DNA from: Pedobacter psychrophilus
Lineage (GTDB): Bacteria; Bacteroidota; Bacteroidia; Sphingobacteriales; Sphingobacteriaceae
Assembly: GCF_001652725.1 (NCBI RefSeq)
Contig: NZ_LWHJ01000022.1
Location: 124,001-188,000 of the forward strand
DNA length: 64,000 bases
Reading direction: 5' to 3'
Shown: positions 1,783-59,949 of the stretch, one piece after another
Layout of the letters: the number at the start of each line of letters is the position of its first letter
How positions within the stretch are numbered: position 1 is the first letter of the stretch
Translations under genes and position numbers: made by a program
Notes under the pieces: model-generated
The model's database searches: none
The model's input: the letters and a program-made list of their open reading frames with translations, nothing else
What the model was told of the DNA's origin: nothing

Positions 1783-1794
1783 TCACGAAATACA

Positions 1795-3492: not shown

Positions 3493-3509
3493 TTTATAGA
3501 ATTATAATT

Positions 3510-24300: not shown

Positions 24301-24633
24301 TATTATTACAATGAAACTAATCCGAGTGATCCAGCCAATAACATTAATGGAAAATATCCGCGTTTAAAGAATACAACGGACTCTCAAAATAATATCCCTA
24401 GCGATTTTTATTTCTACGATGCATCATATATAAAACTTAAAAACATGCAGTTGGGTTACAATATTCCAGATGCTTTTCTGAAGAAAATAAAAATGAGCCG
24501 AGCCAGAATTTTTGTTTCTGGTGAGAATTTGTTAACCATAACAGATTATCCGGGCTTAGACCCAGAAATTGGAGCTAGTGTAAATTACCCTACAGCCAGA
24601 CAATACTCTTTAGGATTGAATGTTTCATTTTAA
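21340..24633 (+). CDS. SusC/RagA-family TonB-dependent outer-membrane transporter (region 2)
   Basis: This complete 1097-residue SusC has a long N-terminal leader with a hydrophobic signal core ending NHLIAQ (about residue 47). A carboxypeptidase-like regulatory domain (about 50-125, LTGKISDERSLPVIGATVKV) and a TonB-box-like EVVVVGYGVQKK come next. The plug domain contains IRIRGTGTLNNNDAVVIIDG and ILKDAASASIYGS, and a 22-strand-type barrel ends ARQYSLGLNVSF. There is no STN signalling domain, so regulation by a sigma/anti-sigma pair is not expected, in line with the LacI-type operator upstream. It would import lyase-generated oligosaccharides, with SusD encoded 19 bp downstream. Confidence 0.96.
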   Translation: MRGFYKGIFGFFNQKINLFRKKTIDSIAYSLLVFAILCFLPNHLIAQTKLLTGKISDERSLPVIGATVKVKGTSNGTGTDANGMFKINVLPTDTIQVIYLGYKTVERVVGSASVMNINLDLETENLYEVVVVGYGVQKKVNVTGAVAAIDGKAIQDRPVTNVSSALAGLASGVSVQQGSGRPGSDGATIRIRGTGTLNNNDAVVIIDGIQGSIDAVNPNDIESISILKDAASASIYGSIAANGVILITTKKGSANKMALNYTGILSQMQPAAIPSMVSDYATHMNLVNEGFRNLGQPNAYTQATIDAWENAKLNPNGTNSIGVPNYIAYPNTDWPDVIFNNSVLQNHNLSMIGGSEKINFLLSGGYLQNEGVMENTENIRYQFRGNLQAKATKFLSVGTQTFLSRESSGLGGSSTFDVLYAAVPGQYPYLDGRYGFAQAPEEALTNNPLGSLRNLGGNDNTTRFNSTLFANLDIIKGLKFETRVNYQEALGEKNIYAIPQERWDFGANQIRVPASLPENLNTSYSMNKNYTVIFDNVLRYSTVLATKHDIGLLAGYNQNYFHGYNFNATGRGLIDAGITTLGSATSALAVGGGENDRAIRSWFGRLNYAFDQRYLFEAVVRYDGSSRFAPETRWGFFPAVSAGWRISQENFMKNVDFVSNLKLRASYGQTGNNASGNYDYQSTYNTQNYSFNNTPLAGLAQDKIANRNLKWETTTLTNLGLDGNLFKGAINFEIDAYNRLTDGILFVPTIPLTVGTAAAPTRNIAAVINRGLELQLGYQNNSRKLNWSVSGNFAYNYNNIQKYKGQLNEGYSDAGIYSTNLGEVSSGGNQRIVEGHKINEFYLYPVYKGSGNYKNADGSVNINGGPTDGMIRTPADLDWLNAMLAAGYKFLPSNTVGKTNIYYGDFIYADSNGDGSYGNTFDRKFTGASAAPKYNFGFQGNLKWNNFDLFMLWSGSAGMKYYWNERAFNNSIVELADGVGSLVAGNHYYYNETNPSDPANNINGKYPRLKNTTDSQNNIPSDFYFYDASYIKLKNMQLGYNIPDAFLKKIKMSRARIFVSGENLLTITDYPGLDPEIGASVNYPTARQYSLGLNVSF

Positions 24634-24652
24634 TATAATTTAAAAAATTGCA

Positions 24653-44239: not shown

Positions 44240-45325
44240 ATGAAAAATTTTAAGATTACATTTTTTGCTTTACTGATGTTTTTCAGTATAGCTAATCTTT
44301 CAACAAGCTTTAGTTATCAAAATGATAACTCATCAATCGCTATTGATTCCTCCAACTATTTCACTAATCCGATTGGGAAAGGGGCAGATCCATGGGTTAT
44401 AAAAGATAATGGGTTTTATTATGTCTGTCAAAGCGGATTGAATAAAGCTGGAGAAAATGTAATTACCATAAAAAAATCTAGCTCCTTAATTAAAATGGGC
44501 AAGAGAGAAGAGGTTTGGAAAGCACCAAAAAATCAATGGAACAGCACCAATGTTTGGGCGCCTGAACTTCATCATATTGGGAATCACTGGTATATTTATT
44601 ATGCAGCGGGAAAATCTGGGCCTCCTTATGCTTTTCAAAGAAGTGGAGTGTTAGAATCTGTTAGCGATGATGCGCAAGGTGAATACGTTGATAAGGGAAT
44701 GCTAAAAACAGGAACAGATGAAAATGATTTTAGTGGGACCTATTGGGCTATAGATTTAACTGTTTCTGATATAAGAGGACAACTTTATGCAATTTGGTCT
44801 GGTTGGGAAAACAACCAAAAATCAGATAAGACGAAGCAATATTTATACATTGCTAAGATGAATAGCCCAACTCTAATTAGCTCAGAAAGGGTAAAAATAT
44901 CAGAACCAAGTGAAGGTTGGGAAATTGGCGGACCTTTAAATCTAAATGAAGGCCCGCAGTTGCTTATTCATAGTAAAGATGTTTTTATCATTTATTCTGC
45001 CAGAGAATCTTGGACACCACAATATCGCTTAGGTCAGTTAAGGTTAAAAACTAATGCAGATCCAATGAAGGCAGAAAGTTGGATAAAATCAGGTCCTGTT
45101 TTTATGGGTAACCCAGAAGTTTATGGGGTAGGGCATGCTAGCTTTACCAAATCTCCAGACGATAAGGAATGGTGGATATTTTATCATAGTAAAATTGATA
45201 AAACACCAGGTTGGAAAAGAGATTTAAGATTACAACAATTTTATTGGGATAAAGCTGGAAATCCAATTTTTGGCAATCCATTACCAGCCGGAACAAAAAT
45301 TAAAAAACCTTCGGGAGAAATATAG
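44240..45325 (+). CDS. GH43-family glycoside hydrolase
   Basis: The 361-residue exported enzyme has a signal peptide (about 1-25). It carries the GH43 base in NPIGKGADPWVIKDNGFYYV (Asp near 50), NVWAPELHHIGNHWYIYYAA, the middle Asp in WAIDLTVSDIRGQLYAIWSG and the acid Glu in LNEGPQLLIH. Its tail contains YGVGHASFTKSPDDKEWWIF. This resembles exported alpha-L-arabinofuranosidase-type GH43 members, although the linkage is not fixed. It is followed 5 bp later by the GH5-like gene, so they are cotranscribed. Confidence 0.9.
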   Translation: MKNFKITFFALLMFFSIANLSTSFSYQNDNSSIAIDSSNYFTNPIGKGADPWVIKDNGFYYVCQSGLNKAGENVITIKKSSSLIKMGKREEVWKAPKNQWNSTNVWAPELHHIGNHWYIYYAAGKSGPPYAFQRSGVLESVSDDAQGEYVDKGMLKTGTDENDFSGTYWAIDLTVSDIRGQLYAIWSGWENNQKSDKTKQYLYIAKMNSPTLISSERVKISEPSEGWEIGGPLNLNEGPQLLIHSKDVFIIYSARESWTPQYRLGQLRLKTNADPMKAESWIKSGPVFMGNPEVYGVGHASFTKSPDDKEWWIFYHSKIDKTPGWKRDLRLQQFYWDKAGNPIFGNPLPAGTKIKKPSGEI

Positions 45326-45330
45326 AAAAT

Positions 45331-46395
45331 ATGAAAAAAACCTATTATTTAATTGTAGTCCTTTTTTTAATGACTGCACTTTCTTTAAAAGCACAAGAGC
45401 TTCCTGGCAAATGGTCGGTAGAAAAAGCCAATTCATGGTATGCTGAACATCCTTGGATGAGTGGTGCCAACTTTATTCCTAGTTCTGCCATTAATCAGTT
45501 AGAAATGTGGCAAGCAGACACCTTTGATCCTACAACAATTGATAGAGAATTAGGATGGGCAGAAGGAATTGGATTTAACACCATGAGGGTATTTTTATAT
45601 AGTTTAGCTTGGAAACAAGACCCTGCGGGTTTCAAAAAAAGAGTTGATCAATATTTAACTATTGCAGAGAAACATCACATCCAAACCATTTTTGTATTTT
45701 TTGATGATTGCTGGAATGACAAAGCTGAGATAGGTAAACAGCCCATACCTAAAATTGGTATCCATAATTCTGGATGGATACAAGACCCTCCTAATGAAGG
45801 ATATAAAGACGCAACCATATATCCAGAGTTGGAAAAATATGTCAAAGACGTTTTAAAAACTTTTGGTAAAGATAAAAGGGTTTTGATGTGGGATCTATAT
45901 AATGAACCAGGAAATTCTAAAAAATTAGAAACCTCATTCCCTTTACTGAGCAATGTATTTAAATGGGCTAGGGAGTCAAATCCTACCCAGCCAATTACTA
46001 GCGGAATTTGGAGATGGGATTTTGAAAAGTTGAATGCATTCCAGATTATAAATTCAGATATCATCACCTATCATGATTATGAAGAACCAGATTGGCATAA
46101 AAGAGTAATTTCTTTGCTAAAAACACATAACAGACCATTAATTTGCACAGAATATATGGCAAGAACACTTAATAGCCGATTTGCCAATATTATGCCTTTA
46201 CTTAAAAAAGAAAACGTTGGTGCAATTAGCTGGGGTTTAGTTGATGGTAAAACCAATACCATTTATGCTTGGGATTCCCCATATCCTAATGGAGAACAGC
46301 CAATTGAATGGTTTCATGATGTTTTTAAGAGAGATGGTACGCCTTATAGATTAGACGAAATCCAATTGATTAAGCAATTAAACAATAAGAAGTAA
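45331..46395 (+). CDS. Clan GH-A (GH5-like) glycoside hydrolase
   Basis: The 354-residue secreted protein has a signal peptide ending LSLKAQ (about residue 22). It is a single TIM barrel: an early strand GFNTMRVFLYSLAWKQDP, acid/base Glu192 in MWDLYNEPGN, HDY near residue 248 and a likely nucleophile Glu274 in PLICTEYMAR. These features define clan GH-A. Relatives are often annotated as cellulase-like or 1,4-beta-xylanase, without firm activity. Its start lies 5 bp after the GH43 stop and galM begins 1 bp after its own stop, a tight operon. Confidence 0.82.
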   Translation: MKKTYYLIVVLFLMTALSLKAQELPGKWSVEKANSWYAEHPWMSGANFIPSSAINQLEMWQADTFDPTTIDRELGWAEGIGFNTMRVFLYSLAWKQDPAGFKKRVDQYLTIAEKHHIQTIFVFFDDCWNDKAEIGKQPIPKIGIHNSGWIQDPPNEGYKDATIYPELEKYVKDVLKTFGKDKRVLMWDLYNEPGNSKKLETSFPLLSNVFKWARESNPTQPITSGIWRWDFEKLNAFQIINSDIITYHDYEEPDWHKRVISLLKTHNRPLICTEYMARTLNSRFANIMPLLKKENVGAISWGLVDGKTNTIYAWDSPYPNGEQPIEWFHDVFKRDGTPYRLDEIQLIKQLNNKK

Positions 46396-46396
46396 C

Positions 46397-47572
46397 ATGA
46401 TGAGTTCAAAAGGATTTCGACCATTAATCTGCATGGCAGTTTTAAGTTTTGCTGCACTCAATGGATTTTGTAATCTTAACTACCATAAATTTAATACTGA
46501 AGTTTCTAACCCTAAAAATGTAATTAATTATGGGGATTTAGATACTTTACAAGGGAAGAAAATTGATATTTATACCATTAAAAATGGATTAATCAAGGCT
46601 ACTTTCACAAACTATGGAGCTAGAATGGTTAGTCTTTGGGTGCCAGATAAAAACGGTATTCTTACTGATGTTGTTTTAGGGCTTGCAACTGTTAAAGATT
46701 ATCTTCAGGCAAATCAACCATTTTTTGGACCTACCATTGGTAGGTTTGGAAATAGAATTGCAAAAGGACAGTTTGATTTAAATGGAGAGCACTTTCAGTT
46801 GAATATCAATAGCGGAGGCAACACTTTACATGGTGGCAAAAATGGATTTCACAATAAGGTATGGGATGTGCAACAGCCTGATTCTACTAAATTAATTCTT
46901 ACTTATTTCGCTAAAGATGGTGAAGAGGGTTTCCCAGGAAATTTAAAGACTAAAGTGACTTTTTCTATTACGGATAAAGGAGCTCTTAAATTAGAGTATG
47001 ATGCAACAACTGATAAACCAACCATCGTAAATCTAACTAATCATTCTTATTTCAATTTAAACGGTGAAGGCTCTGGCGAAATAATTAATCATCAACTTAC
47101 TATTTATGCCGATAAATATACGCCGGTTAATAGTGCGTTAATTCCAACTGGAGAATTAGCAAATGTGAAAGGCACCCCATTTGATTTCACAAAACCAATT
47201 TCCGTAGGTTCTAAAATAAATATAGAAAATGAGCAGTTAAAGTATGGGAAAGGATATGACCATAATTTTGTGCTGAATGGTAAAAAAGTAAATAGTAAAA
47301 TACATGCAGCCACTGTTGTTGGAGATAAATCTAGTATTCAGTTAGATATTTACACAGATGAACCCGGATTGCAATTTTATAGTGGAAATTATTTAAAAGG
47401 CAAAGATGCTTTGAAAAATGGTTCTAGAGATACCTATCGTTCTGGTTTTGCTATAGAGACCCAACATTTCCCTGATTCTCCAAACCAACCATCATTTCCT
47501 TCAACAGTATTAAATCCTGATAAAAAATATCATACTGTATCGTTATATCAATTTTCCATTTCGAAGAATTGA
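46397..47572 (+). CDS. galM: Aldose 1-epimerase (galactose mutarotase), second copy
   Basis: The 391-residue GalM paralogue starts 1 bp after the GH5-like stop. It has an exported N-terminus (hydrophobic segment, ending AALNGFCN), then FTNYGARMVSLWVPDKNG, IGRFGNRIAKGQF, LTNHSYFNLNGEG with the catalytic His, and ETQHFPDSPNQPSFPST with the catalytic Glu. It is very similar along its length to the galM at 36153, so it probably comes from a duplication within the locus. Its role is mutarotation of hexose released by the surrounding hydrolases. Confidence 0.93.
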   Translation: MMSSKGFRPLICMAVLSFAALNGFCNLNYHKFNTEVSNPKNVINYGDLDTLQGKKIDIYTIKNGLIKATFTNYGARMVSLWVPDKNGILTDVVLGLATVKDYLQANQPFFGPTIGRFGNRIAKGQFDLNGEHFQLNINSGGNTLHGGKNGFHNKVWDVQQPDSTKLILTYFAKDGEEGFPGNLKTKVTFSITDKGALKLEYDATTDKPTIVNLTNHSYFNLNGEGSGEIINHQLTIYADKYTPVNSALIPTGELANVKGTPFDFTKPISVGSKINIENEQLKYGKGYDHNFVLNGKKVNSKIHAATVVGDKSSIQLDIYTDEPGLQFYSGNYLKGKDALKNGSRDTYRSGFAIETQHFPDSPNQPSFPSTVLNPDKKYHTVSLYQFSISKN

Positions 47573-47603
47573 AAGCGATTTAATCATCTCAAATTGAAAT
47601 AAT

Positions 47604-49022
47604 ATGAAAAGAATAATTTTTTTGTTCATTTTTTTATCGAGTGGATTTTATTTAAAAGCACAAATTCATTTGCCATCTATCATTGGAGACCAAATGGTTT
47701 TGCAACAAAAAGCAAAAACACAATTATGGGGATGGTCTGATGATAACCAACAGGTAGAATTAACAACTAGTTGGGATAATAAAAAATATACTTCTGAAAT
47801 AGCAACAGATAATAAATGGACTTTTAATTTAAAAACTCCAATTGCTGGTGGCCCATATACGCTAACTTTTAAATCTGGTAATCAAAATATTATTTTAAAA
47901 GATGTGATGATAGGAGAGGTATGGTTGTGCTCAGGACAATCAAACATGGAGATGGCACTTTCTGGCAAACCAAATCAACCTATTTTAAACAGCGATTCAT
48001 TGATTGCAAACTCTACCAACCCACAAATTAAATTTTTTAAAGCCGAAAGAACCATATCAAACGAACCACAAAAAGATGTTAAGGGAATGTGGGTTCAAAG
48101 CAATCCTGCAAATGCCAAAGATTTTAGTGCTTTAGGCTATCAATTTGCAAGTATGCTAAGTAAAAAATTAAACGTTACTGTTGGAATTATTCAATCTGCT
48201 TGGGGCGGCACTCCCATAAGAGCTTGGATGAGTAGCAATGAGCTGCAAAAATTTCCTGATATGTCAGCGAAAAACAAAGGAGAGGTTCCCTCAAATCCAT
48301 CTGTTTTATATAACGGAATGATTGCTCCTTTAGCACCATATAGCATCAAAGGATTTCTGTGGTATCAAGGAGAAAATGACCATAAAAATTACTATAAGGA
48401 ATATCCATACCTCATGGAGGCAATGATTAACGGTTGGAGAAGTGATTGGAATAACGAGAAATTGCCATTTTATTTTGTTCAGATTGCCCCTTGGTTATAT
48501 TCATCAGATCCGTACATGTCATCTCCTTATCTTCGAGAATCTCAACTGAAAGCTTCTCACCTTATAAAAAATACGGGGATGGCTGTCACTGCAGATATTG
48601 GCTCTAATAAATCCATCCATCCGCCGGATAAGACAAAAGTTGCTGAACGTTTATTGAAGATAGCGTTAGCTAATGATTATCACCAAAAAAATGTGGTTTG
48701 GCTTGGTCCAGAAGTTAAAAAAGTAAAGATGAATGATGATAAAGCAGTTATCAAATTTGTAAATGTTGCTAATGGATTAGAAATGAATCCATCGTCTTCG
48801 TCAAATTTCGAGATAGCTGGAGAGGATCAAAAATTTTATCCTGCCAAAGCAAAAATAGTTTCTAAAAATCAATTGATTATTGAAAGTGATGAAGTAAAAA
48901 AACCAGTTGCTGTGCGTTATGGATTTCAAGATTTTTTTATAGGAAATTTATATAATTCAGCAGGTTTACCTGCATCACCATTTAGAACAGATCAATGGGA
49001 AATCGTAAAAACAAAAAAATGA
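47604..49022 (+). CDS. Sialate O-acetylesterase-like SGNH esterase
   Basis: The 472-residue exported protein has a signal peptide ending FYLKAQ. The family opening is LPSIIGDQMVLQQ, followed by a small beta domain, then the SGNH catalytic block WLCSGQSNMEMAL (Ser113), the AWGGTPIRAW block, GFLWYQGEND and a late Asp/His region near IHPPDK. Such DUF303/SGNH enzymes remove O-acetyl groups from sugars, not only from sialic acid. It suggests that the target glycan is acetylated as well as sulfated. Its stop overlaps the next start (ATGA), which indicates translational coupling to the GH43 gene. Confidence 0.9.
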   Translation: MKRIIFLFIFLSSGFYLKAQIHLPSIIGDQMVLQQKAKTQLWGWSDDNQQVELTTSWDNKKYTSEIATDNKWTFNLKTPIAGGPYTLTFKSGNQNIILKDVMIGEVWLCSGQSNMEMALSGKPNQPILNSDSLIANSTNPQIKFFKAERTISNEPQKDVKGMWVQSNPANAKDFSALGYQFASMLSKKLNVTVGIIQSAWGGTPIRAWMSSNELQKFPDMSAKNKGEVPSNPSVLYNGMIAPLAPYSIKGFLWYQGENDHKNYYKEYPYLMEAMINGWRSDWNNEKLPFYFVQIAPWLYSSDPYMSSPYLRESQLKASHLIKNTGMAVTADIGSNKSIHPPDKTKVAERLLKIALANDYHQKNVVWLGPEVKKVKMNDDKAVIKFVNVANGLEMNPSSSSNFEIAGEDQKFYPAKAKIVSKNQLIIESDEVKKPVAVRYGFQDFFIGNLYNSAGLPASPFRTDQWEIVKTKK

Positions 49023-50098
49023 AGATAGTTTATAATTTAATAGGTGTATTGATGCTTTCATTGAGCTTAGGATGTATGGCTCAAGAATTTAAAAACCCAA
49101 TTGATGTAAAATTGGGAGATCCTTACGTGTTAAAAACTGCTCAAGGAAAATACTATATGTATGGTACAGGCGGTGTAAAAAATGGTTTCAAATGTTATTC
49201 ATCAACAGATTTAGTAAACTGGAAAGATGAAGGTGTAATTTACACCAATAAACAAGAAAAAGCTTGGGGAATAAGCGCTTTTTGGGCTCCGGAAGTGTAT
49301 GAAAAGGATAATAATTTTTATTTGTTTTATAGTGCACAATGGAAAGAAAACCCAACCAATGAATTGGAGAATTTTAAGATTGGTGTAGCGGTTTCTAAAA
49401 GTCCTACTGGTCCATTTATAGATGTTTCTGGAAAACCTATTTTTAATCCAGATTACCCAATTATTGATGGAAACGTGTTTTTCGAAAATAATAAAGTTTA
49501 CTTATATTATTCTAGATGTTGCTACAAGCACCCGGTAGAAAGTGAAGTTGCAACTTGGGCAAAAGAAAAAGGTTGGTATAAAGAAATAGAAGAAAGCTGG
49601 GTTTATGGAGTAGAGTTAAAAAAAGATTTTAGCGGTATAATAGGAGAACCTGTATTATTACTAAAACCACCTGTTAAACAAAATAAAGAAACAGAATGGG
49701 AAAGCAGGTCAGTCACTTCTCATGAAGCAAATAGAAGATGGACAGAAGGTTCTACACTTCTAAAAAATAACGCAACTTATTATATGACCTATTCTGCTAA
49801 TAATTTTGATGGTGAAAATTATGCGGTTGGTTATGCTACTTCTAAAAATCCATTGGGGCCTTTTACAAAATCTGTCAATAACCCAATTTTACAAAAAAAG
49901 GGAGATGTTACCGGCACAGGTCATAATAGCATAACATGGTCTCCTGATGGAAAAGAAATGTTGTGCGTTTATCATGGTAGAACAAAGGAATCAGGACACC
50001 AAAGGGTAGTTTTTATTGATAGAATGCACTTTGATGATAGTGGAAATCTGATAGTTAATGGACCAACAACCAATCTTCAAAAGTATCCGTCTAAGTAA
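49019..50098 (+). CDS. GH43-family glycoside hydrolase, translationally coupled
   Basis: The product is 359 residues from ATG 49019, which overlaps the preceding stop as ATGA and gives a proper signal (LSLSLGCMAQ, a lipoprotein site at Cys19 or cleavage after Ala21). A start at 48995 would be inside the previous gene. GH43 residues are the base Asp34 (KLGDPYVLK), FWAPEVYEK, a middle Asp near 150 (YPIIDGNVF) and the acid Glu in RRWTEGSTLL. The tail IDRMHFDDSGNLIVNGPT matches the GH43 at 32515, its paralogue. It ends the long plus-strand series just before a bidirectional hairpin. Confidence 0.9.
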   Translation: MKIVYNLIGVLMLSLSLGCMAQEFKNPIDVKLGDPYVLKTAQGKYYMYGTGGVKNGFKCYSSTDLVNWKDEGVIYTNKQEKAWGISAFWAPEVYEKDNNFYLFYSAQWKENPTNELENFKIGVAVSKSPTGPFIDVSGKPIFNPDYPIIDGNVFFENNKVYLYYSRCCYKHPVESEVATWAKEKGWYKEIEESWVYGVELKKDFSGIIGEPVLLLKPPVKQNKETEWESRSVTSHEANRRWTEGSTLLKNNATYYMTYSANNFDGENYAVGYATSKNPLGPFTKSVNNPILQKKGDVTGTGHNSITWSPDGKEMLCVYHGRTKESGHQRVVFIDRMHFDDSGNLIVNGPTTNLQKYPSK

Positions 50099-50114
50099 AC
50101 AATATTTATTAATA

Positions 50115-50164
50115 ATATCAAAGAGATGAAAACCATAATTTTCATCTCTTTGATATTCTTTTTA
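50115..50164. terminator. Bidirectional terminator between convergent GH43 and GH27 genes
   Basis: A perfect 18-bp stem (50115-50132 with 50139-50156) has a 6-base loop. It is followed by TCTTTTTATT on the plus strand and, read the other way, by an AT-rich tail. It fills the 69-bp gap between the two convergent stop codons. Confidence 0.88.
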
Positions 50165-50167
50165 TTA

Positions 50168-51397
50168 CTAAGGTTCAAGAATTAAAAACAAGCCGCTTCC
50201 TGGTTCAATATTTTGTTCATAACCATCATTCATTTTTTCAAGTTTTTTCCCATCATAAACGTCCCTAACTTGGAATGATCGATGACCATCTAACATTAAT
50301 GAGGTTAATTTTATCATATGGGATTGCTTTTTATCCCGATTCAATAGTAAAGCTCCGTACTTACCATCTTTAAGTCTTTTTAGCCAGACTTCAGTATCAT
50401 CATCCATTATAATTCTTCTTCCTTGTTCTGTATCGTCCTGATTAATTTGAATTGCTGTTTTATTGGTGATGATGTCAATTTCCTCTTTAGTCATATTTCT
50501 AGGGTCATTTCCCAAGAATAATGGAGAGCTCATAATGCACCAAAGAGCGAAGTGAGATCTTTGTTCAGCATTGGTCAAACTTTTTTCTCCTACCACTAAC
50601 ATATCAGGATCATTCCAATAACCATTTCCCGCTAATAATCTCGACTCGTTATTTAATACTGAAATGGCCATAACGCTATTTTTCTTTCCATTATCAAAGC
50701 TGGCTCCCGAAGTTTGAGCGGTTGCGATATCACCGGTAGTACGTCCCATATTTGTTAACGTTGGATACCAATCATAATAACGGTATGCGCTGGCACTTAA
50801 AATCATATCTCTATTGGCCTCTTGTAATAATTTACTCCATAATGCATAAGCTTTTTGAATATTTTCACCTTGTTTATCCCATCCGGAGTACCAAATTGGA
50901 TCTTTTCTCGGATGCCCTTCAGGATGAGGATCTAAGGAGAAACGGCATCTGTCTAATTTTACAAAATCCAATCCCCAATCCACAAATTGTTGTACTTGGA
51001 CTTTTTCATTTCCCCAACCTCCAACGGGGTCACATCCGCAATCATGAGAACCTGGTACAGTATGAAGTCCAAATTTAAAACCTTTAGAATGCGCATAGTT
51101 TGCCAAGGCTTTCATTCCAGATGGAAATTTATTATTGACTAATAATTCGCCATTTGGTCCTAAAGTGCTGTCTCTCCAACCTCCATCAACTACGATATAA
51201 TTATATCCCAACTCATTTAATTTTTGAGTAGCCATAGCATCAATTACTTCTCTAATCAATTTTTCATCGATGCTGTTTTTCCCAAAATAGTTCCAACTAT
51301 TCCAACCCATCGGTGGTGATGATGATAAATCAGGTTGTTTTTGTGCAAATAGCTGGATAAATAGGAGCATTAGAATGGGGAATAGCAGCTTCTTCAT
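50168..51397 (-). CDS. Glycoside hydrolase family 27 alpha-galactosidase-type enzyme
   Basis: The 409-residue secreted enzyme has a signal peptide ending QLFAQ (about residue 19). GH27 marks are SSPPMGWNSWNYF (about 26-38), VVDGGWRD, FKFGLHTVPGSHDCGCDPVG, the nucleophile region DFVKLDRCRF (Asp149) and the acid/base region GYWNDPDMLVVG (about 259-270). A C-terminal beta domain completes it. The nucleophile block differs from the common LKYDNC form. The family releases alpha-galactose, or alpha-GalNAc or beta-arabinopyranose in some members. It is the only minus-strand enzyme of region 3 and so has its own promoter, in the gap before susC. Confidence 0.92.
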   Translation of the reverse strand: MKKLLFPILMLLFIQLFAQKQPDLSSSPPMGWNSWNYFGKNSIDEKLIREVIDAMATQKLNELGYNYIVVDGGWRDSTLGPNGELLVNNKFPSGMKALANYAHSKGFKFGLHTVPGSHDCGCDPVGGWGNEKVQVQQFVDWGLDFVKLDRCRFSLDPHPEGHPRKDPIWYSGWDKQGENIQKAYALWSKLLQEANRDMILSASAYRYYDWYPTLTNMGRTTGDIATAQTSGASFDNGKKNSVMAISVLNNESRLLAGNGYWNDPDMLVVGEKSLTNAEQRSHFALWCIMSSPLFLGNDPRNMTKEEIDIITNKTAIQINQDDTEQGRRIIMDDDTEVWLKRLKDGKYGALLLNRDKKQSHMIKLTSLMLDGHRSFQVRDVYDGKKLEKMNDGYEQNIEPGSGLFLILEP

Positions 51398-52050: not shown

Positions 52051-55000
52051 ATGAAAAAAATCTTTGGGGAATTTCTAATTCCCTACCAGTTAATCTGGTC
52101 TTTAAACAAAAAAAGGCTTGCTCTGCTTGTCTGCACAATCTTTACTGGTTTATTTATATTTGTAAATCAGAATTCTTATGCCCAAGAGGCAAGAAAACCA
52201 ATGTCTGGTACTGTAACTGATGAAACGGGAGAAAAACTACCTGGAGTTTCTGTTAAAGTTAAAGGCCAAGAAAGAGTTACCCAAACTAATATTGATGGTC
52301 AGTATTCATTTAACGTGGTGCCAAATGCTGTATTGGTGTTCAGTTACTTAGGCTATGAAACTAAGGAGGTACCAATTGCTGGGAAAGAAATTCTAAACGT
52401 TGTTTTGAAAGTTTCTGCATCAGCGCTTGAAGAAGTTGTTGTAGTGGGTTATGGTACTGTTGCAAAAAGCGATTTGACTGGGTCTGTAAGTACTGTAAAA
52501 CTTAAAGATGTTAACGAAAATAAGGTAGTATCTATTTCAGAAGCTTTACAAGGGAAAATTGCTGGGGTAAACATTGTTACAAATACAGGTGAACCTGGAG
52601 GCGCAATAACTTTTAATATCAGAGGGATGACTTCCATTACAGGAAGTAACCAGCCATTAATAGTTGTTGACGGTCAGCCTATTGAATCTGCATTTAGTGC
52701 TACAAGTGCAGGACAAGGTTTAGATGGAGGTGCAGAGATTCCACCTGCTGACCCTTTAGCATCTATCAATCCAAATGATATTGCTTCAATTGAAATTTTA
52801 AAGGATGCTTCTTCTACCGCTATTTATGGTTCTAGAGGTGCAAATGGAGTGGTATTGATTACTACGAAAAGTGGCAGCGGCACAAAAGATCAGGTATCTT
52901 TTTCTACAAGATTTGATATGAGCCAGATTCCTAAGCAATTGGATATGTTGAGTTCTTATGAATATATGATCATGAAAAACGAGGCTAACGTTAACGATGG
53001 TAAAGCACCAGTTTATAATGATAACACTTTAGATTCTATATCTAAAGCTCTAAATATCAATTGGCAAGATGAGGTTTATAGAAATGCAATATCTCAGGAT
53101 CATCAAATCAGTATTACTGGTAAAGATCAAAAATACAGCTATCTATTATCTGGTAACTATTCTGACCAGCAAAGTGTAATTCAAAAAGCAGGTTATAAGA
53201 GAGGTGGTGTCAGGCTTAATTATGAAAGACAAATCAGTCCGAAATTAACAGTAGGATTAAGAACATACCTTTCCGTTGCTGATAGAAAATTTGGACTACA
53301 ATCTAACTGGACAGGTATTTTAGGTTCAACAGTTGTTTTAGGAGCATTGTCTTTTAATCCTTTACAAAATCCTTATGATCCTGAAACAGGTGATTTTGAT
53401 GAGGATTTAGCAAATGGACCTTTGTTATTAATTAATAAAGTTATTGATCGTACTTCTATAAGAACTGTTCTATCCAATTTTAACGCAGACTACAAAATCA
53501 GTAAAGATTTAACCTACACATTAAAGGCAGGTATAAATGAAATTTACTCATTAAGAAATGTTTACTATCCTACCGGAACTTTTATTGGGAACTCTGCCCC
53601 AGGAGGATCTGCAACTAGGGCTGATAACAGAAATGCAAATTATGTAATAGACAACTTACTTACTTACAAGAAAAATATCGCAAAAAAACATGCTATAAAT
53701 GCTGTTGCCGGATATAGCTACCAACGTTGGTTTAACAATTCTACCAGTGTTACCAATTTAGGCTTTCCAAGTAATACTTTAACTTATAATAATCCTGCTG
53801 GTGCAGCTTTTCCTGGTAGAACATTTTATAATTTGAATGAAAGAGCATTAATGTCTGTTTTAGGAAGGGCAAATTATTCTTATGACAAACGTTATTTATT
53901 AACGCTAACGGCTCGTTATGACGGTTCTACCAGATTATCTCCAGGTAATAAGTGGAATCTATATCCATCTGTAGGTTTAGGTTGGAATGTCTCTAATGAA
54001 GATTTCTTTAAAGAAAAATTAGATTTCATGTCTTTGCTTAAAGTTAGAGCAAGTATTGGTGTTGCAGGTAATGACAATATAAGAGTTGGGGGTTCTCAGG
54101 CTTCTTATAGCTTAAATTATTATCCCTTTGGTTCTAATATTAATCCAAATTATGTGATTTCAGACTTTGATAATCCTACTTTAAGATGGGAAAGTACAAC
54201 CAAGTACAATGCCGGCGTAGATCTTGGTTTTATGAAGGACAAACTTAATTTCTCAATAGATTATTATAAACATGTAACCACAGATTTATTAGTGAACCTA
54301 ACATTACCTGGTTCTGTTGGTTATGGAAATTATTTTACGAATGTTGGCGAAATAATGAATCAGGGACTTGATGTTGAAGGTTCATATTATATTACTCGTA
54401 AAAACTTTAATTTAACTCTAGGTGCAAATTTTTCCATCTTCAATAATAAGGTAGTTAGTTTAGGAGAAGGCGGAACCATATTTGGTCGTACTTTCTTTGC
54501 AGGAGGTGCTATTTTACTAGGACAGCCGGTAACAGCTGCTTTTGTTGGAGAGCAAATTTCTAATTTCTATGGTTACAGAACCGGAGGAATATATCAAAAT
54601 CAGGCAGAAATAGATAATGATCCGGCTTTGGCAAATGATAATGGAAGGTCTTTAATTAGACCTGGTATGATCAAATATTTGGATCTTAACAATGACGGTC
54701 AGATTTCAGGAGATGATAGAACCATTATTGGAAACCCAACACCAGATTTTACATTTGGCTTTAATCCAAGTATCTCGTATAAGAAACTAACTGCCAGCAT
54801 GACTATTTTTGGTAGCTATGGAGGAGAATTATTAAACTTGAACAGATGGATGGTTGGTTCTAATCACGCCAATACAACTTATAATTCATTGCGAGATTCT
54901 TATGAAGGAAGATGGTATGGAGAAGGAACAAGTAATTTATATCCTCGTTTAACAACAGATGCGGTTAGGTTACAGCAACGTTTTCCGGATTGGATGGTAG

Positions 55001-55245
55001 AAGATGCTTCTTTTGTAAGGTTACAAAACTTAACGTTTGGATATAATTTCAAAACGCCTCAAAGTCTAAAAATTTCAAGCTTAAGAGTGTTTTTAACAGG
55101 TACTAATTTGTTTACCATTACAAACTATTCTGGTTATGATCCTAATGTAAACTCTTTTGGGCAAAGTTCTATTGATAATGGAATTGACCTAGGGACTTTG
55201 CCTCAAGCGAGATCGTTTTCAGCAGGTTTCCAACTTACTTTTTAA
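52051..55245 (+). CDS. SusC/RagA-family TonB-dependent outer-membrane transporter (region 3)
   Basis: This complete 1064-residue SusC has a long leader with a signal core ending QNSYAQE (about residue 45). It continues with a carboxypeptidase-like domain (MSGTVTDETGEKLPGVSVKV, about 50-69 onward), the TonB-box-like EEVVVVGYGTVAKSD, a plug with FNIRGMTSITGSNQPLIVVD and IEILKDASSTAIYGSRGANG, and a barrel ending ARSFSAGFQLTF. No STN domain is present. It pairs with the SusD 19 bp downstream and should import the desulfated or sulfated oligosaccharides of region 3. Confidence 0.96.
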   Translation: MKKIFGEFLIPYQLIWSLNKKRLALLVCTIFTGLFIFVNQNSYAQEARKPMSGTVTDETGEKLPGVSVKVKGQERVTQTNIDGQYSFNVVPNAVLVFSYLGYETKEVPIAGKEILNVVLKVSASALEEVVVVGYGTVAKSDLTGSVSTVKLKDVNENKVVSISEALQGKIAGVNIVTNTGEPGGAITFNIRGMTSITGSNQPLIVVDGQPIESAFSATSAGQGLDGGAEIPPADPLASINPNDIASIEILKDASSTAIYGSRGANGVVLITTKSGSGTKDQVSFSTRFDMSQIPKQLDMLSSYEYMIMKNEANVNDGKAPVYNDNTLDSISKALNINWQDEVYRNAISQDHQISITGKDQKYSYLLSGNYSDQQSVIQKAGYKRGGVRLNYERQISPKLTVGLRTYLSVADRKFGLQSNWTGILGSTVVLGALSFNPLQNPYDPETGDFDEDLANGPLLLINKVIDRTSIRTVLSNFNADYKISKDLTYTLKAGINEIYSLRNVYYPTGTFIGNSAPGGSATRADNRNANYVIDNLLTYKKNIAKKHAINAVAGYSYQRWFNNSTSVTNLGFPSNTLTYNNPAGAAFPGRTFYNLNERALMSVLGRANYSYDKRYLLTLTARYDGSTRLSPGNKWNLYPSVGLGWNVSNEDFFKEKLDFMSLLKVRASIGVAGNDNIRVGGSQASYSLNYYPFGSNINPNYVISDFDNPTLRWESTTKYNAGVDLGFMKDKLNFSIDYYKHVTTDLLVNLTLPGSVGYGNYFTNVGEIMNQGLDVEGSYYITRKNFNLTLGANFSIFNNKVVSLGEGGTIFGRTFFAGGAILLGQPVTAAFVGEQISNFYGYRTGGIYQNQAEIDNDPALANDNGRSLIRPGMIKYLDLNNDGQISGDDRTIIGNPTPDFTFGFNPSISYKKLTASMTIFGSYGGELLNLNRWMVGSNHANTTYNSLRDSYEGRWYGEGTSNLYPRLTTDAVRLQQRFPDWMVEDASFVRLQNLTFGYNFKTPQSLKISSLRVFLTGTNLFTITNYSGYDPNVNSFGQSSIDNGIDLGTLPQARSFSAGFQLTF

Positions 55246-55264
55246 TCACTTAACGATAGATAAA

Positions 55265-57013
55265 ATGAAAATTTTAAAATATATTTTTCTCTCATTACTT
55301 TTTGGAGGATTAATTTCCTTTAACTCATGTAGTCTTGATGAAGTAATTAAAGATACACCAACTCCTGCAACGGCAACTTCAGAAACAGATGTAACTGCAA
55401 TTATTGGAGGTATGTATTCCAGATTTAATGATGCAAGTATGTTTAAATTTCAAAGTTTTAACATGCTAATTCTTGGGGCAGATGATATCTTTTCTACTGC
55501 TGGCTCTGAAGCAGGGCCTTATGCTCAGCGTACTTTCTCAAGTGCTAATACAGCTCCAATGTGGAATAATTTATACGCCTGCATTGCAAACGCAAATAAT
55601 TTAATTGAAGTTTTAGATAAACTTACTTTATCTCCTGCATTTGAAAAGAGGGCTTATGGTGAAGCTTACTTTATCAGGGCCTTTAGTTATTATTATCTGG
55701 TTAGACTATATGGAGGTGCGCCAATTAGAAATACAGCCATTCACTTTGATACCGATTTCTATTTACCTAAAAACACGGTAGATGAACTTTACACCCAGAT
55801 TTTAAGCGACTTTAAATTAGCCTCTGAAAATCTACCTTTACAATCAAGCATAGGTGCTGACGAATTAGGCCGAGCTTCAAAAGGTGCTGCTCAAGCTTTT
55901 TTATCAGAAGCTTATTTAACTTACGGCAATCAACTGTCGCTAGCTGGGCAATCACCAATTACGCAATATCAGCAGTCTGTATTATATGCCGATTCTGTAA
56001 TAGATAGTAAAAAATATGTTTTGCTAGCTAATTTTGGAGATTTATTTGACATCAATAAAGAAACTGGTGCTTATAGTGAAGTGATTTTCGGTGTAAGATT
56101 TCAAACCGATGCCTCAGCTAGAGCCCAACCTGCTGCCGGATCAGAATATGCTTCAAATTTTGGTGCCTCAAACACTTTTGGTGTTAGTGCAAGTGGAGGT
56201 AATGGAAATAATACTTTTAGGGTATCACATTGGTTTGCTGATTATTATCGTAAAGGTGATTATTCAAATGGTGTTTCTAAATTTACTCCAAATATTGATT
56301 ATAGAAATGAAAAAGCATTTGTTCAAAGAGGATTTAATGCAAACAACGGAAGATTCTTTGCTGTATATCCAAACATTCCAGGCTCTACTGTACCAGGTTC
56401 GTCTACTGATGGTACTATAAACGATCCATTACTGGCTAAATATCAAGATCCTGGAGGAAAAGATGCCCGAAACCATGGTAATGATTTATTTATTATAAGA
56501 TTTTCTGCGATTTATTTGATAAAGGCTGAGGCTCTTAACGAATTAAATGGCCCTACTCAACCAGCATTAGATGCTTTTAACATGGTTAGAGCAAGAGCAA
56601 GAACTGTAAATTCTGTACCAGAGGCCAGGACTATTCCTGCTAATTTAACTTTAACAACGGCTGTAGATAAGAAAACTTTCAGATTAAAAATCTTTGATGA
56701 GAGAGGTCTGGAATTTATTGGTGAAGCAGTAAGATGGTTTGATTTGGTGAGGATGCAAAGTCCGTTAAACTCATCACAAACTATGTACGAGTATCAATTT
56801 AAAACTGTTTTGAGTGATGCTACTAAATATCCTAGAATATTACCTACAGGATATAATGCGAGTACACAACTTTATACTCCAAATACTTCTAGAGAAAACG
56901 CAATTTACGCACCAATTTTAAATGTATCTGTTCCTAAGTTTTTATTATTTCCGGTACCTAATACAGAGTTGGTCTTAAATACAAAATTTGGACAACAAAA
57001 TCCAGGCTGGTAA
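55265..57013 (+). CDS. SusD/RagB-family glycan-binding lipoprotein (region 3)
   Basis: The 582-residue SusD has a lipoprotein signal ending SFNSC (Cys22). Family blocks include NNLYACIANANNLIEVLDKL, YFIRAFSYYYLVRLYGGAPI, LFIIRFSAIYLIKAEALNEL and FDERGLEFIGEAVRWFDLVR. It ends with the FGQQNPGW terminus. It would cap the SusC encoded 19 bp upstream. After a 72-bp gap with a strong hairpin comes a T9SS-sorted protein instead of the usual surface lipoprotein. Confidence 0.95.
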   Translation: MKILKYIFLSLLFGGLISFNSCSLDEVIKDTPTPATATSETDVTAIIGGMYSRFNDASMFKFQSFNMLILGADDIFSTAGSEAGPYAQRTFSSANTAPMWNNLYACIANANNLIEVLDKLTLSPAFEKRAYGEAYFIRAFSYYYLVRLYGGAPIRNTAIHFDTDFYLPKNTVDELYTQILSDFKLASENLPLQSSIGADELGRASKGAAQAFLSEAYLTYGNQLSLAGQSPITQYQQSVLYADSVIDSKKYVLLANFGDLFDINKETGAYSEVIFGVRFQTDASARAQPAAGSEYASNFGASNTFGVSASGGNGNNTFRVSHWFADYYRKGDYSNGVSKFTPNIDYRNEKAFVQRGFNANNGRFFAVYPNIPGSTVPGSSTDGTINDPLLAKYQDPGGKDARNHGNDLFIIRFSAIYLIKAEALNELNGPTQPALDAFNMVRARARTVNSVPEARTIPANLTLTTAVDKKTFRLKIFDERGLEFIGEAVRWFDLVRMQSPLNSSQTMYEYQFKTVLSDATKYPRILPTGYNASTQLYTPNTSRENAIYAPILNVSVPKFLLFPVPNTELVLNTKFGQQNPGW

Positions 57014-57042
57014 AATATAACTAGAAATACTATCAATTAACA

Positions 57043-57071
57043 ATCGGGTAAGCTTTAAAAGCTTACCCGAT
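57043..57071 (+). other. Intra-operon hairpin between susD and the T9SS cargo gene
   Basis: Arms ATCGGGTAAGCTTT (57043-57056) and its complement (57058-57071) make a nearly loopless perfect inverted repeat. No T-tract follows, so it is more likely an mRNA-stabilising or processing hairpin than a terminator. It lies 15 bp upstream of the next ATG. Confidence 0.6.
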
Positions 57072-57085
57072 AAACTAAATAGATT

Positions 57086-58366
57086 ATGAAACAAATTTTA
57101 TTATTTATAGCTATTCTGATAAGTAGTTTCGCTTTAAAAGCCCAAACTGTATACTTTGATCAGAATTTTAATTCATCAACAAATTACACAACATATGCAG
57201 CAACAAGTCCTTCTGCAAATCAATTTAATGCTATTGCAGTTGTGGGGAACACAACTGTAAATACAACTAATGGTAAATTACAATTTGTTAAAACTAATAC
57301 TACTGGTATAAATAGAGGAGGTTTTACAAGAAGTTCAAATTTTGCAGGTGCTCCAACAACAGGAGCATCTTTTCTTAAAGTTTCAATGGAAATTACCATA
57401 ACAAATAACAATGCGGATGTTCCAAGTGGTTTCCAATTTACTATTGGGGAAGTATCTGGTGCGCCAGCTAAACCAGGTGATGGCAGTACACATTCTAATA
57501 TTTACATAAATCCTACCGTAAATGCCGGCGAGTTTACCATAGGTACAGGGTCTAAATCAAGTAAACCATTTACAGGGAAAAAAACTATTGTTTGGTATAT
57601 AAACAACAGTGGTTTGCCTGTAGGCTACACTGATCCTAATGGAGCAATCTCTACTGTAGAAAACGATGCGGCAGATGTGTGGGTAATAGATGCGAGTACT
57701 AAAACTTTAGCTATTGATGAAGAACCTGCCACAACACCGGCTATCAATCTAAAAAACTTCAAACTATCAAACAATCCAAATTTCACGGCAACTTTAGATA
57801 TTGATGATATACTATTAACCGAGGAGCCAGTAGTAAAGGTGAAAAAAATAGTAAGTGCTGGTTCTGTAGCTAGTGTTACAGTGCCTTTAAAAACTACTTT
57901 TGATAGAGCAAAGCTTCCTCAAACTGTTCAGGTGACTTATGATGACCAAACGACTGATATTGTAGGAATTAATTGGGCGCCAACTACAGTTTATAATCAA
58001 TATACTTTAGGAACCTACGCCGCAACAGGAACTTTGATTCCTATTAATGGCACAATTAATCCACAGTTCATTACTGTTCCTAGCAGTGTTACTGTCAGAG
58101 ATGACATTAAACTTTTAAATGCTTTTTCTCCAAATGGGGATGGAAAAAATGATACTTGGGTGAATCCTGAATTAAGCTATTATCAAGAAGTAGATGTACA
58201 AGTTTATGATAAAGCGGGTCAGCTTTTGTTTCAATCTAATGACCCTTTAGTGGGATGGGATGGTAAGAATAAAAACGGTGAAATTATAGCAGGTTCTTAT
58301 TTCTATATCATTAATGTTCCTTCTTTAATCTTGACAAAAAAAGGGGTAGTTACAGTTATTAAATAA
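57086..58366 (+). CDS. T9SS type B-sorted secreted protein with Ig-like domain
   Basis: The 426-residue protein has a signal peptide ending FALKAQ (about residue 20). Residues 20-245 form a Ser/Thr/Asn-rich beta-sandwich that may bind glycan. Residues about 250-340 are a bacterial Ig-like domain (TFDRAKLPQTVQVTYDDQTT). The C-terminus (about 342-426) is the gliding-motility-associated CHU_C domain: LLNAFSPNGDGKNDTW, VYDKAGQLLFQSND, GWDGKNKNGEIIAGSYFYII. This is the type B signal for T9SS export and surface attachment. It directly precedes a PorP/SprF gene, as many type B cargos do. Its place after susD suggests it acts as the surface glycan-binding protein of this PUL (inference). Confidence 0.88.
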   Translation: MKQILLFIAILISSFALKAQTVYFDQNFNSSTNYTTYAATSPSANQFNAIAVVGNTTVNTTNGKLQFVKTNTTGINRGGFTRSSNFAGAPTTGASFLKVSMEITITNNNADVPSGFQFTIGEVSGAPAKPGDGSTHSNIYINPTVNAGEFTIGTGSKSSKPFTGKKTIVWYINNSGLPVGYTDPNGAISTVENDAADVWVIDASTKTLAIDEEPATTPAINLKNFKLSNNPNFTATLDIDDILLTEEPVVKVKKIVSAGSVASVTVPLKTTFDRAKLPQTVQVTYDDQTTDIVGINWAPTTVYNQYTLGTYAATGTLIPINGTINPQFITVPSSVTVRDDIKLLNAFSPNGDGKNDTWVNPELSYYQEVDVQVYDKAGQLLFQSNDPLVGWDGKNKNGEIIAGSYFYIINVPSLILTKKGVVTVIK

Positions 58367-58373
58367 TACAATT

Positions 58374-59303
58374 ATGAAAAGATATTTTATTTTAAACATC
58401 CTGTTGCTTAGTATAATGACTATATCCTTTGCCCAAAGCAGACAGGATATAGCTAATTTTTCACAGTATCAACAATATTTTAATCCTTCTTTAACTGGTA
58501 GTAATGGTACAGTGGTTAAGAATTTTTATAGAGACCAATGGACTAGTTTTGAGGATTCCCCAAGAACTTTATTTCTTTCTGGAGAGTATAATCTTAATGA
58601 TGAGAAAACTGAAGGTACAAACCATGCTTTTGGAGCTGCAATTTTGTATGACACTTATGGCGCATTAACTACTAACTATGTTAACCTATCTTATGGAGCG
58701 GGAATAAAAATTTCTGAAAAATTAATGTTTAGAGCTGGTGTTGCGGCAACTTACAACAACACTAAATTTGATCAAAGTAAGTTAATTTTAGGTGATCCTA
58801 ATGATCCGGCATACAGTTCAATTATGAATGCGCAAGGCTTAAATAAATATGGTTTAAATTTAGGTGTTGCCGTAACTTCTGACGACTTCTATGTAGGCTA
58901 TTCTTTAGCTGATTTAGTAAAGGGTGGGGATTCTGAAAATATTTATTTTAAAGATAATTATGTTCTACAACATACTTTTAACGCAGGCTATAGAATGCCA
59001 TTTTCTGGTAATATCGGATTGATTGCTAATGGAATTTATCGTTATGATAACAACCTTAAGGGCACTGCCGAAGTTCAGCTAAAAAGCGTATTTCTTAACA
59101 CATTTTGGGTAGGTGCGGGCTATAGAAATGATGTTGCTTATACTGTTAACGCTGGATTAAGATTAAAGCAATTTGTTTTAGGATACAATAGAGAAATTTC
59201 ATCGGGTAAAGTAGGTAATTCTTACCGTGGAGGAAATGAAATTAATTTAGCATATTATATATCTCCCAAATTTGGAAATTCAAAAAAATTGAATTTTTGG
59301 TAA
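58374..59303 (+). CDS. PorP/SprF-family type IX secretion outer-membrane protein
   Basis: The 309-residue protein has a signal peptide ending ISFAQS. It matches the PorP/SprF family: early FSQYQQYFNPSLTGSNGT, YRDQWTSFEDSPRTLFLSGE, then a beta-barrel with FGAAILYDTYGALTTNYVNL and LMFRAGVAATYNN. SprF proteins assist the export and attachment of one T9SS type B partner, commonly the gene next to them. Here that partner is the CHU_C protein 7 bp upstream. A hairpin terminator follows at 59339. Confidence 0.92.
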   Translation: MKRYFILNILLLSIMTISFAQSRQDIANFSQYQQYFNPSLTGSNGTVVKNFYRDQWTSFEDSPRTLFLSGEYNLNDEKTEGTNHAFGAAILYDTYGALTTNYVNLSYGAGIKISEKLMFRAGVAATYNNTKFDQSKLILGDPNDPAYSSIMNAQGLNKYGLNLGVAVTSDDFYVGYSLADLVKGGDSENIYFKDNYVLQHTFNAGYRMPFSGNIGLIANGIYRYDNNLKGTAEVQLKSVFLNTFWVGAGYRNDVAYTVNAGLRLKQFVLGYNREISSGKVGNSYRGGNEINLAYYISPKFGNSKKLNFW

Positions 59304-59378: not shown

Positions 59379-59949
59379 TAAATGAAGAATTTTAATTAGT
59401 TTTTCAAATTTGGATCAATTATTTGGAGACAATCTTTTTTAATATAGAAGTAATAAAACCTATTCTATTCCTACCTTATATACATCAAATCTGAATGTTA
59501 TATACAGTTACCAACTTTATCTTTTCTTGAACTATCTGGTAAATTAAATTTGCTATAATCTATTATTCTTTAATAGAAATCGAGATTTATTTTAGATTAT
59601 AATTGTGTAATGCTAATTCAGTTTCTGGTTCAGGAACTTACGACCCTATCGCTAAATCTTTTTACCTTAATTATAAGTACACCAATGCGGCAAAAAATTA
59701 TTCTGTAATGGATACTTTAATTTTGAGACAAGCTCCAGAACTTGATTTAAGATTTGAAACATGGTAACTGATATAGTTTTAATAGAGATTAATAAATGAA
59801 GAAAATAATCTTTGTTTTTATTTGATGATTTGTGGGTCAATTAAAACACTCATCCAAATAAATTCTATTGTCTTTATTGATGATAAGATAGTTAAGATTT
59901 AAGTCATTTTTAATGATGACGAATTAGGAAAGTATAAAATTAATTATTT
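59379..59949. other. Gap with gene debris before the AraC gene
   Basis: No intact gene lies here. A surface-lipoprotein C-terminus remains at 59609-59767. At 59796 MKKIIFVFI and a stop look like another broken signal peptide. Near 59900-59975 one frame reads NDDELGKYKINYFYDKNIFF, coding-like but unidentified, and overlapping the AraC gene's end on the other strand. Confidence 0.4.
59609..59767 (+). pseudogene. Remnant C-terminus of a DUF1735/DUF4361-type surface lipoprotein
   Basis: A 52-residue open frame ends the fragment: GSGTYDPIAKSFYLNYKYTN, then a stretch ending LRQAPELDLRFETW and a stop. The GxGTYDPxxKxFxLNYKYT pattern is the usual final module of surface lipoproteins found beside susD (BT_3987-like with DUF4361). 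No start, signal or N-terminal part precedes it. It is probably what is left of the region's original glycan-binding lipoprotein gene. Confidence 0.6.

Follow-up and report, generated by a model that had tools for sequence, protein, structure and literature searches.

A 64,000-nucleotide stretch of the Pedobacter psychrophilus genome (RefSeq assembly GCF_001652725.1, contig NZ_LWHJ01000022.1, positions 124,001 to 188,000; hereafter, the window) contains a row of four genes in which a susC-susD pair is followed by genes for a type B cargo of the type IX secretion system (T9SS), here called the CHU_C protein after its tail, and for a PorP/SprF shuttle barrel. We found the same row in two related genomes. 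We propose with moderate confidence that the CHU_C-SprF pair is a surface lectin that is delivered by the T9SS, held by SprF, and used as an accessory glycan binder by its SusCD importer. The evidence was obtained by computation and consists of gene order, conservation, protein families, a predicted fold, the absence of cysteines and of a PorE gene, and the restriction of the row to one susCD clade.

Gene order and conservation of the row

The scores of all four proteins exceed the curated cut-offs of their families. The PorP/SprF protein reaches 154.6 bits for TIGR03519 (cut-off 90.55 bits) and 144.3 bits for PF11751 (cut-off 22.3 bits). The CHU_C protein reaches 63.4 bits for CHU_C (PF13585, cut-off 27 bits), 54.1 bits for TIGR04131 (cut-off 35 bits), and 36.7 bits for Big_4, an Ig-like domain. 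The genes lie on the plus strand, separated by 19 bp (susC-susD), 72 bp (susD-CHU_C), and 7 bp (CHU_C-SprF). The original prediction, made from the letters of the window alone, had named susC, susD, a CHU_C-tailed Ig-like protein, and PorP/SprF 7 bp further on, and each gene was confirmed in position and family. The host genome (G000, 4.0 Mb) has seven PorP/SprF matches, 26 SusD matches over cut-off, and a T9SS translocon gene (SprA_N, 518 bits, 1.9e-155; SprA_N was the sole T9SS part searched).

We compared the row with other SprF loci. A CHU_C gene immediately precedes six of the seven PorP/SprF genes in the host genome, and in other Bacteroidia the two genes are adjacent (within 400 bp) at 48 of the 60 loci that we surveyed. 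These 60 loci were hand-picked from more than 160 matches listed, mostly from the top with some skipped; six lower-ranked loci of the window's family are included, and several of the stretches end at contig ends. No susD, and no susC longer than 600 aa, was found in the fetched stretch of any of the 60 (SusC pieces below 600 aa were not counted). Only one of the 26 SusD genes in the host genome has a CHU_C gene within 1.5-kb flanks, and this is the one in the window row; the SusD profile recovers 26/26 Pfam SusD genes of this genome, having been trained on three of them, those in the window. The CHU_C-SprF joint is ordinary, and the joint with susCD is the unusual one.

We searched for the row in related genomes. 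Genus searches scored all candidates; family and class searches scored three to seven per genome, so the family and class counts are lower bounds. Relatives of the CHU_C protein (E <= 1e-20) occur in at least 7 of 399 family genomes. The match spans the protein in three of them (the host, G012, and G026, in the last up to a contig end) and is confined to the N-terminal domain (N-domain) in the other four, which belong to the host's genus. SprF orthologues (E <= 1e-25) occur in at least 3 of the 399 genomes, again the host, G012, and G026, and SusD relatives (E <= 1e-60) in at least 8. By genus, the count is 1/18 for the host's (the host itself), 1/1 for G012's, and 1/2 for G026's. G012 carries the complete row, and its four proteins are 72, 65, 59, and 64% identical to those of the window. 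In G026, a single contig has a susC-susD-CHU_C run at either end. The two runs break off at the same CHU_C residues, and contigs C6 and C8 each end in an SprF 3' half. Because the contig breaks inside CHU_C and the SprF halves lie on other contig ends, the place of SprF in these two runs is one that we infer.

The recurrence of this order in G012 (complete) and in two G026 copies (susC-susD-CHU_C) indicates that the row is not a chance arrangement. The pair is linked to susCD in the relatives found to carry it, as the original prediction would have it. The quartet comprises four loci in three genomes, which form one clade (100/100) in a susC+susD tree of nine loci. SusC of the other quartet loci differs from the window SusC by 28-37%, yet the gene order and open frames persist. 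Neither CHU_C nor SprF was found in the fetched stretch of five other SusD relatives (G100, G246, G066, G045, and G389). The gene after susD codes for a sulfatase in G100 and G246, a GH43 protein in G066, and a beta-helix protein with a weak GH141 match in G045. In G389, it codes for a protein that is 45% identical to the window's GH5-like enzyme and is itself without a Pfam match at 0.001.

The row qualifies as part of a polysaccharide utilization locus (PUL), as its susC-susD pair adjoins carbohydrate-active enzymes. Around it are genes for GH43, GH5-like, GH2, and GH27-like proteins, a SASA esterase, an aldose epimerase, and several sulfatases. Because of the sulfatases, the PUL polysaccharide is probably sulfated. 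In G012, a GH43-GH5-epimerase run stands before susC as it does in the window. The enzymes beside the G012 row are GH43, GH5, epimerase, sulfatases, and GH127, with a sulfatase directly 3' of SprF and GH127 one gene further. Those beside the G026 rows are GH2, sulfatases, GH127, and GH43.

The window is rich in sulfatases and holds three different susCD pairs (1-4076, 21340-26404, and 52051-57013). The first is followed by a BT_3987-like_N protein and the second, as judged by eye, by a sulfatase-like open reading frame (ORF). On the minus strand at 19462-20705, two adjacent ORFs resemble a GH88-type hydrolase cut in two. Of these, the upstream ORF alone matches a Pfam family (Glyco_hydro_88, 25.4 bits, slightly below cut-off), and the ORF pair is possibly a broken gene or a sequencing error.

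Table 1. Coordinates of the four-gene row and of associated features. Positions without a prefix refer to the window.
Feature	Position	Strand	Evidence or content
susC, SusC/RagA TonB-dependent transporter	52051-55245	+	TIGR04056 861 bits, Plug, CarbopepD_reg_2
susD, SusD/RagB lipoprotein	55265-57013	+	SusD_RagB PF07980 131.5 bits, 6.6e-38; PF14322 5.7e-28
Type B T9SS cargo (CHU_C protein), 426 aa	57086-58366	+	CHU_C, TIGR04131, Big_4
PorP/SprF shuttle barrel, 309 aa	58374-59303	+	PF11751 7e-42, TIGR03519 3.8e-45
13-pair palindrome between susD and CHU_C gene	57043-57071		intergene minimum free energy -20 kcal/mol; no T run on + side
14-pair inverted repeat after SprF	59338-59378		fold and sequence; missed by consensus scan (loop too long)
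Remnant: 3' end of DUF1735/DUF5627 lipoprotein gene and start of next sulfatase gene	59612-59807	+	148/196 nt identical to G000:C33; Pfam of intact copy
Enzyme block of the same PUL	44240-51397	+ / -	GH43, GH5-like, aldose epimerase, SASA esterase, GH43 (+); GH27-like (-)
Intact susCD-lipoprotein-sulfatase operon	G000:C33:9000-24000 (L213)
N-domain PUL run, G026:C23	L036 7443-16758 and L217 5511-10587
G026 repeat shared by two CHU_C-SprF copies, with assembly breaks inside	L030 8001-9217, L031 1-1205, L050 7258-7788, L051 1-531

The cargo protein and its N-domain

The CHU_C protein is laid out as a signal peptide (by eye), an L-type-lectin-like domain at residues ~20-250, Big_4 at 263-317, and CHU_C at 342-423. 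It has no lipobox cysteine, and in the window and G012 it contains zero cysteines, so it can carry no lipid anchor. We modeled residues 19-251 alone with AlphaFold2 (mean pLDDT 92.6) and compared the predicted model with known structures by VIA-align. The domain resembles concanavalin-type (L-type-lectin/CBM40-like) jelly rolls. Its best match is a domain of BT_1020 (Z 18.4, root-mean-square deviation [rmsd] 2.9, 175 residues aligned). Other matches are the sialic-acid-binding domain of Vibrio cholerae sialidase (Z 16.0, rmsd 3.0, 179 aligned), Akkermansia muciniphila sialidase (Z 15.9, rmsd 3.5, 183 aligned), ERGIC-53 (Z 15.2, rmsd 3.1, 185 aligned), and legume lectins (Z 13.5-14). The best 50 Foldseek matches are nearly all legume lectins and include the alginate lyase Aly36B. 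The original prediction had seen an uncharacterized beta-sandwich in a suspected glycan-binding protein, and the model is consistent with a lectin-type jelly roll with ligand-binding potential. When the whole model was used in Foldseek, two-domain toxin binding domains led the list (TM about 0.25-0.3, rmsd >20). We read this as an effect of domain arrangement and set these matches aside.

A PDB sequence search with the N-domain profile gave 0 matches, and no Pfam, NCBIfam, or PDB sequence match was found for the domain in the proteins tested. By this measure, it is a candidate new domain family. The whole CHU_C protein as query retrieved six related loci, five by the tail only and one by Big_4 and tail. 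We examined 19 N-domain loci outside the quartet. Four are in the host's genus and one is in G026; the rest are 14 proteins from 13 of 394 further genomes of the class. These proteins range from about 420 to 2600 aa, several being truncated by contig ends. The only one of the 19 with susCD in the fetched stretch is on contig C23 of G026. There, genes for susC, susD, a Laminin_G_3 protein, a pair of sulfatases, GH76, and a third sulfatase form a one-strand PUL run, and the last gene of the run codes for an N-domain protein whose T9SS tail is of type A. The lectin-like domain thus recurs in a further sulfatase PUL, joined there to another type of secretion tail, and its presence in this susCD-sulfatase run makes the case for a glycan role slightly stronger. 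This unnamed L-type-lectin-like domain heads many T9SS proteins across Bacteroidia (stretches L083-L096 and L032-L036).

We compared the two G026 copies with each other. Their N-domains are 44% identical, and their CHU_C tails (residues 336-398) are 78% identical. Nonsynonymous divergence (dN) is 0.53 in the N-domain, 0.34 in Big_4 and tail, 0.17 in susC, 0.16 in susD, and 0.012 in the SprF half. Synonymous divergence (dS) is 0.28 in the SprF half versus 1.37 in susC; the NG86 dS of the N-domain is saturated. SprF seems to have been homogenized between the copies while the exposed N-domain changed, which hints at divided roles within the unit.

Origin and expression of the pair

We examined the ancestry of SprF in a tree of 69 sequences (four from the quartet, five of the six other SprF paralogues of the host, and the 60 surveyed); the sixth paralogue (C31:130014) was left out by the length filter. 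The quartet SprF proteins form one group (100/98), and their sister is a set of four SprF proteins from the genomes G657 and G698 of family f15 (100/96). The five host paralogues stand apart, and on these grounds we rejected a recent duplication of SprF within the genome. The f15 sister genes also lie behind CHU_C genes; their stretches, two of which are shorter than 7 kb, contain no susCD. The tree is most simply explained if a CHU_C-SprF unit was acquired once behind susD, from a source other than the host's own paralogues. The original prediction had given the CHU_C protein its own dedicated SprF, and this view gains support from the separate lineage and from the adjacency of the two genes, which the accessible text of PMC12618676 treats as the norm for cognate shuttles.

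Downstream of SprF lies the decayed end of a lipoprotein gene that the original prediction had noticed. The remnant is real. At 76% DNA identity, it matches a stretch of host contig C33 that covers the 3' end of a complete gene for a DUF1735 (BT_3987-like_N) + DUF5627 lipoprotein and the start of the next gene, by sequence a sulfatase. The SusD of that operon matches the window SusD only in fragments of 26-33% identity. The remnant is best read as the tail of another type of susCD-lipoprotein-sulfatase operon, not as an ancestor of the CHU_C gene, and it suggests PUL turnover at this spot. In none of the five related susCD operons that lack the pair does a DUF1735 lipoprotein follow susD. The claim that the CHU_C protein had replaced a lipoprotein was not supported; we rejected this history because the remnant is of the C33 type, because of the five related operons, and because a sulfatase follows SprF in G012. 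Since the remnant belongs to another operon type and the relatives lack a DUF1735 lipoprotein, the pair looks added rather than swapped in, and addition behind susD is its most likely origin.

Hairpins flank the pair. The palindrome between susD and the CHU_C gene is a possible attenuator; a consensus terminator scan finds it terminator-like on the minus strand only. In G012, this position is taken by an unrelated hairpin (L029 7961-7986, -18.6), and the G026 intergenes have less compact folds, none as strong and compact. Strong unrelated hairpins in two genomes may mark a step at which expression of the lectin unit is set apart from that of SusCD. Downstream of SprF, too, hairpins are present in the window, in G012, and in the two G026 pieces, and the inverted repeat after the window SprF is likely the end of the transcription unit. 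One reading is a single transcription unit in which the pair is made in a smaller amount than SusCD. Predicted promoters and terminators in the window are near their counts in shuffles (44 versus a mean of 37.9, sd 5.9, and 4 versus 3.6, respectively).

Proposed function and alternatives

The operon would yield a SusCD importer and, with it, a surface lectin that can do without a lipid anchor. Once the 426-aa protein had been exported by Sec, its CHU_C tail would be recognized, and it would cross the T9SS translocon SprA. The SprF encoded just downstream would receive the CHU_C protein and remain bound to it as its outer-membrane anchor. The lectin-like domain, raised on the Ig-like Big_4 spacer, would then catch the PUL polysaccharide and feed it to SusCD, a job done elsewhere by surface glycan-binding lipoproteins. 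The window SprF contains no cysteine and so lacks the twin-cysteine motif of gliding-track SprF, which ties SprF to GldK of the track (PMC12635249, accessible text). No PorE-like gene (TPR, PD40, OmpA) lies beside SprF in the window or G012; at two other sprF loci of the host, sprF is followed by a gene for a TPR/PD40/OmpA or PD40/OmpA protein. Without a GldK link or a PorE neighbor, the complex would be expected to be neither track-driven nor wall-fixed, and could diffuse within the outer membrane to reach its SusCD. The proposal draws support from the recurrence of the row in one susCD clade, the PUL enzymes beside it, the SprA gene, the predicted fold, the N-domain protein of the G026:C23 run, and the contrast between diverged N-domains and nearly identical SprF halves in G026. 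It is also favored by the covariation of tail and SprF identities over 55 CHU_C-SprF pairs (r 0.84; as high in 0/2000 permutations). A bolder version, in which the SprF barrel replaces the lipid as anchor and the SprF-lectin joins SusCD in one outer-membrane complex, merging T9SS and Sus importer into a single one-operon machine, seems doubtful to us.

Several results weigh against an accessory glycan binder. The argument for mobility is weak because none of the 60 surveyed SprF proteins has the twin cysteine either (no C-x-C in the last 45 residues of any), so its lack in the window SprF says little. The Mantel correlation between tail and SprF partly reflects shared ancestry. The predicted fold has ligand-binding potential, yet a shared fold shows no function, and jelly rolls also serve enzymes. 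No susC or susD was found in the fetched stretch of 18 of the 19 other N-domain loci (four in the same genus and 14 in the class), and a type A T9SS tail scored over cut-off in 8/8 N-domain proteins tested outside the quartet; the N-domain appears to be a general, widespread surface module. SusD of the window type was absent from the 17 other genomes of the host's genus. The hairpin after susD could uncouple the CHU_C gene from susCD expression, and premature termination at this point has to be reckoned with.

The pair might instead be a co-regulated adhesin that, in the presence of the PUL substrate, attaches the entire cell to the matrix of that substrate or to other cells, with no glycan handed to SusCD. 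Type B cargo proteins are treated as putative adhesins, some of them static, in the accessible text of PMC12618676, and most relatives of the N-domain are surface proteins outside PULs. In addition, genes of the SprF family and of TIGR04131 are induced when Zobellia is on whole algae (PMC9296495, accessible text). However, the protein is short for this role, as 41 of the 48 paired CHU_C proteins in our survey have at least 1000 aa. Pairs in the host genome temper this argument from size: one CHU_C protein has 408 aa, fewer than the window's, and the other four have 846-1781 aa. The position of the gene inside a susCD operon, and the origin of all four loci from one SusCD clade, also speak against an adhesin. 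We consider this explanation unlikely, though it is the alternative that best withstands the evidence.

The pair might also have landed once after susD and been kept by chance or for an unrelated reason. Such hitch-hiking would fit the fact that only four loci are known, all in one susCD clade, and that in both the window and G012 a hairpin lies between susD and the pair. The persistence of order and open frames despite the SusC divergence, and the apparent homogenization of SprF between the G026 copies, make it quite improbable. The potential transcription-ending hairpin after SprF in the window and G012 points the same way, though hairpins also follow susD. An SprF-anchored, secreted jelly-roll enzyme (lyase or hydrolase) is more improbable still: alginate lyases (PL14 5gmt, Z 13.7; Aly36B 6kcw, E 1.1e-6) and the GH131 glucanase 4le4 (Z 13.5) are in the fold lists, but the top Z matches are lectin-type domains and no Pfam or NCBIfam enzyme family matched.

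Comparison with known systems

We compared the accessory glycan binder proposed here with characterized systems, following the accessible text of the papers cited. For two type B tails, dependence on the cognate SprF has been shown, with tail and shuttle setting localization; cargo and shuttle are inferred to be made in matching amounts, and CHU_C-SprF adjacency is common (PMC12618676). PorP and SprF bind type B proteins and have been proposed as their anchors (PMC9143113), and PorE has been proposed to fix some type B complexes to the cell wall (PMC9143113, PMC12618676). The window pair shares a CHU_C/TIGR04131 tail and a PorP/SprF barrel with SprB-SprF, Fjoh_3952-Fjoh_3951, and PG1035-PorP, and an SprF gene directly downstream with SprB and Fjoh_3952. 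It differs from the known type B pairs in its place in a susCD operon, its short lectin-like cargo, and its lack of PorE and of the SprF twin cysteine.

The surface glycan-binding lipoproteins of PULs are of the SusE/F and SGBP-B types. An SGBP-B-like protein, CHU_1279, occurs in an atypical cellulose PUL (PMC12016534). The window protein resembles these lipoproteins in its position after susD and in its predicted beta-sandwich binding domain; it differs in having no cysteine, a T9SS tail with an SprF, and an L-type-lectin-like fold. L-type lectins and CBM40-like domains (BT_1020, V. cholerae sialidase, ERGIC-53) share this predicted fold (Z 15-18 over about 180 residues), but sequence identity is 9-15% with no Pfam or PDB sequence match.

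We found no description of a susCD-CHU_C-SprF operon in titles, abstracts, or passages from the open-access literature, subscription papers and PULDB being outside the scope of our search. Accessory glycan binders of SusCD are known as lipoproteins, and type B T9SS cargo has been seen mainly as adhesins. The row suggests that proteins which catch sugars can be attached to the cell in a second way. If our proposal is right, Bacteroidota can combine two of their hallmark surface systems in one operon and keep them so as SusC diverges. The row is a small, testable unit for asking whether an SprF shuttle can be the permanent anchor of a nutrient-binding protein. A T9SS product in a PUL has a precedent in Flavobacterium johnsoniae ChiA, whose gene belongs to the chitin locus (PMC5127042). 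This soluble chitinase is secreted independently of SprF (as told in PMC9606717), whereas the window protein is predicted to be an anchored binder with a shuttle of its own.

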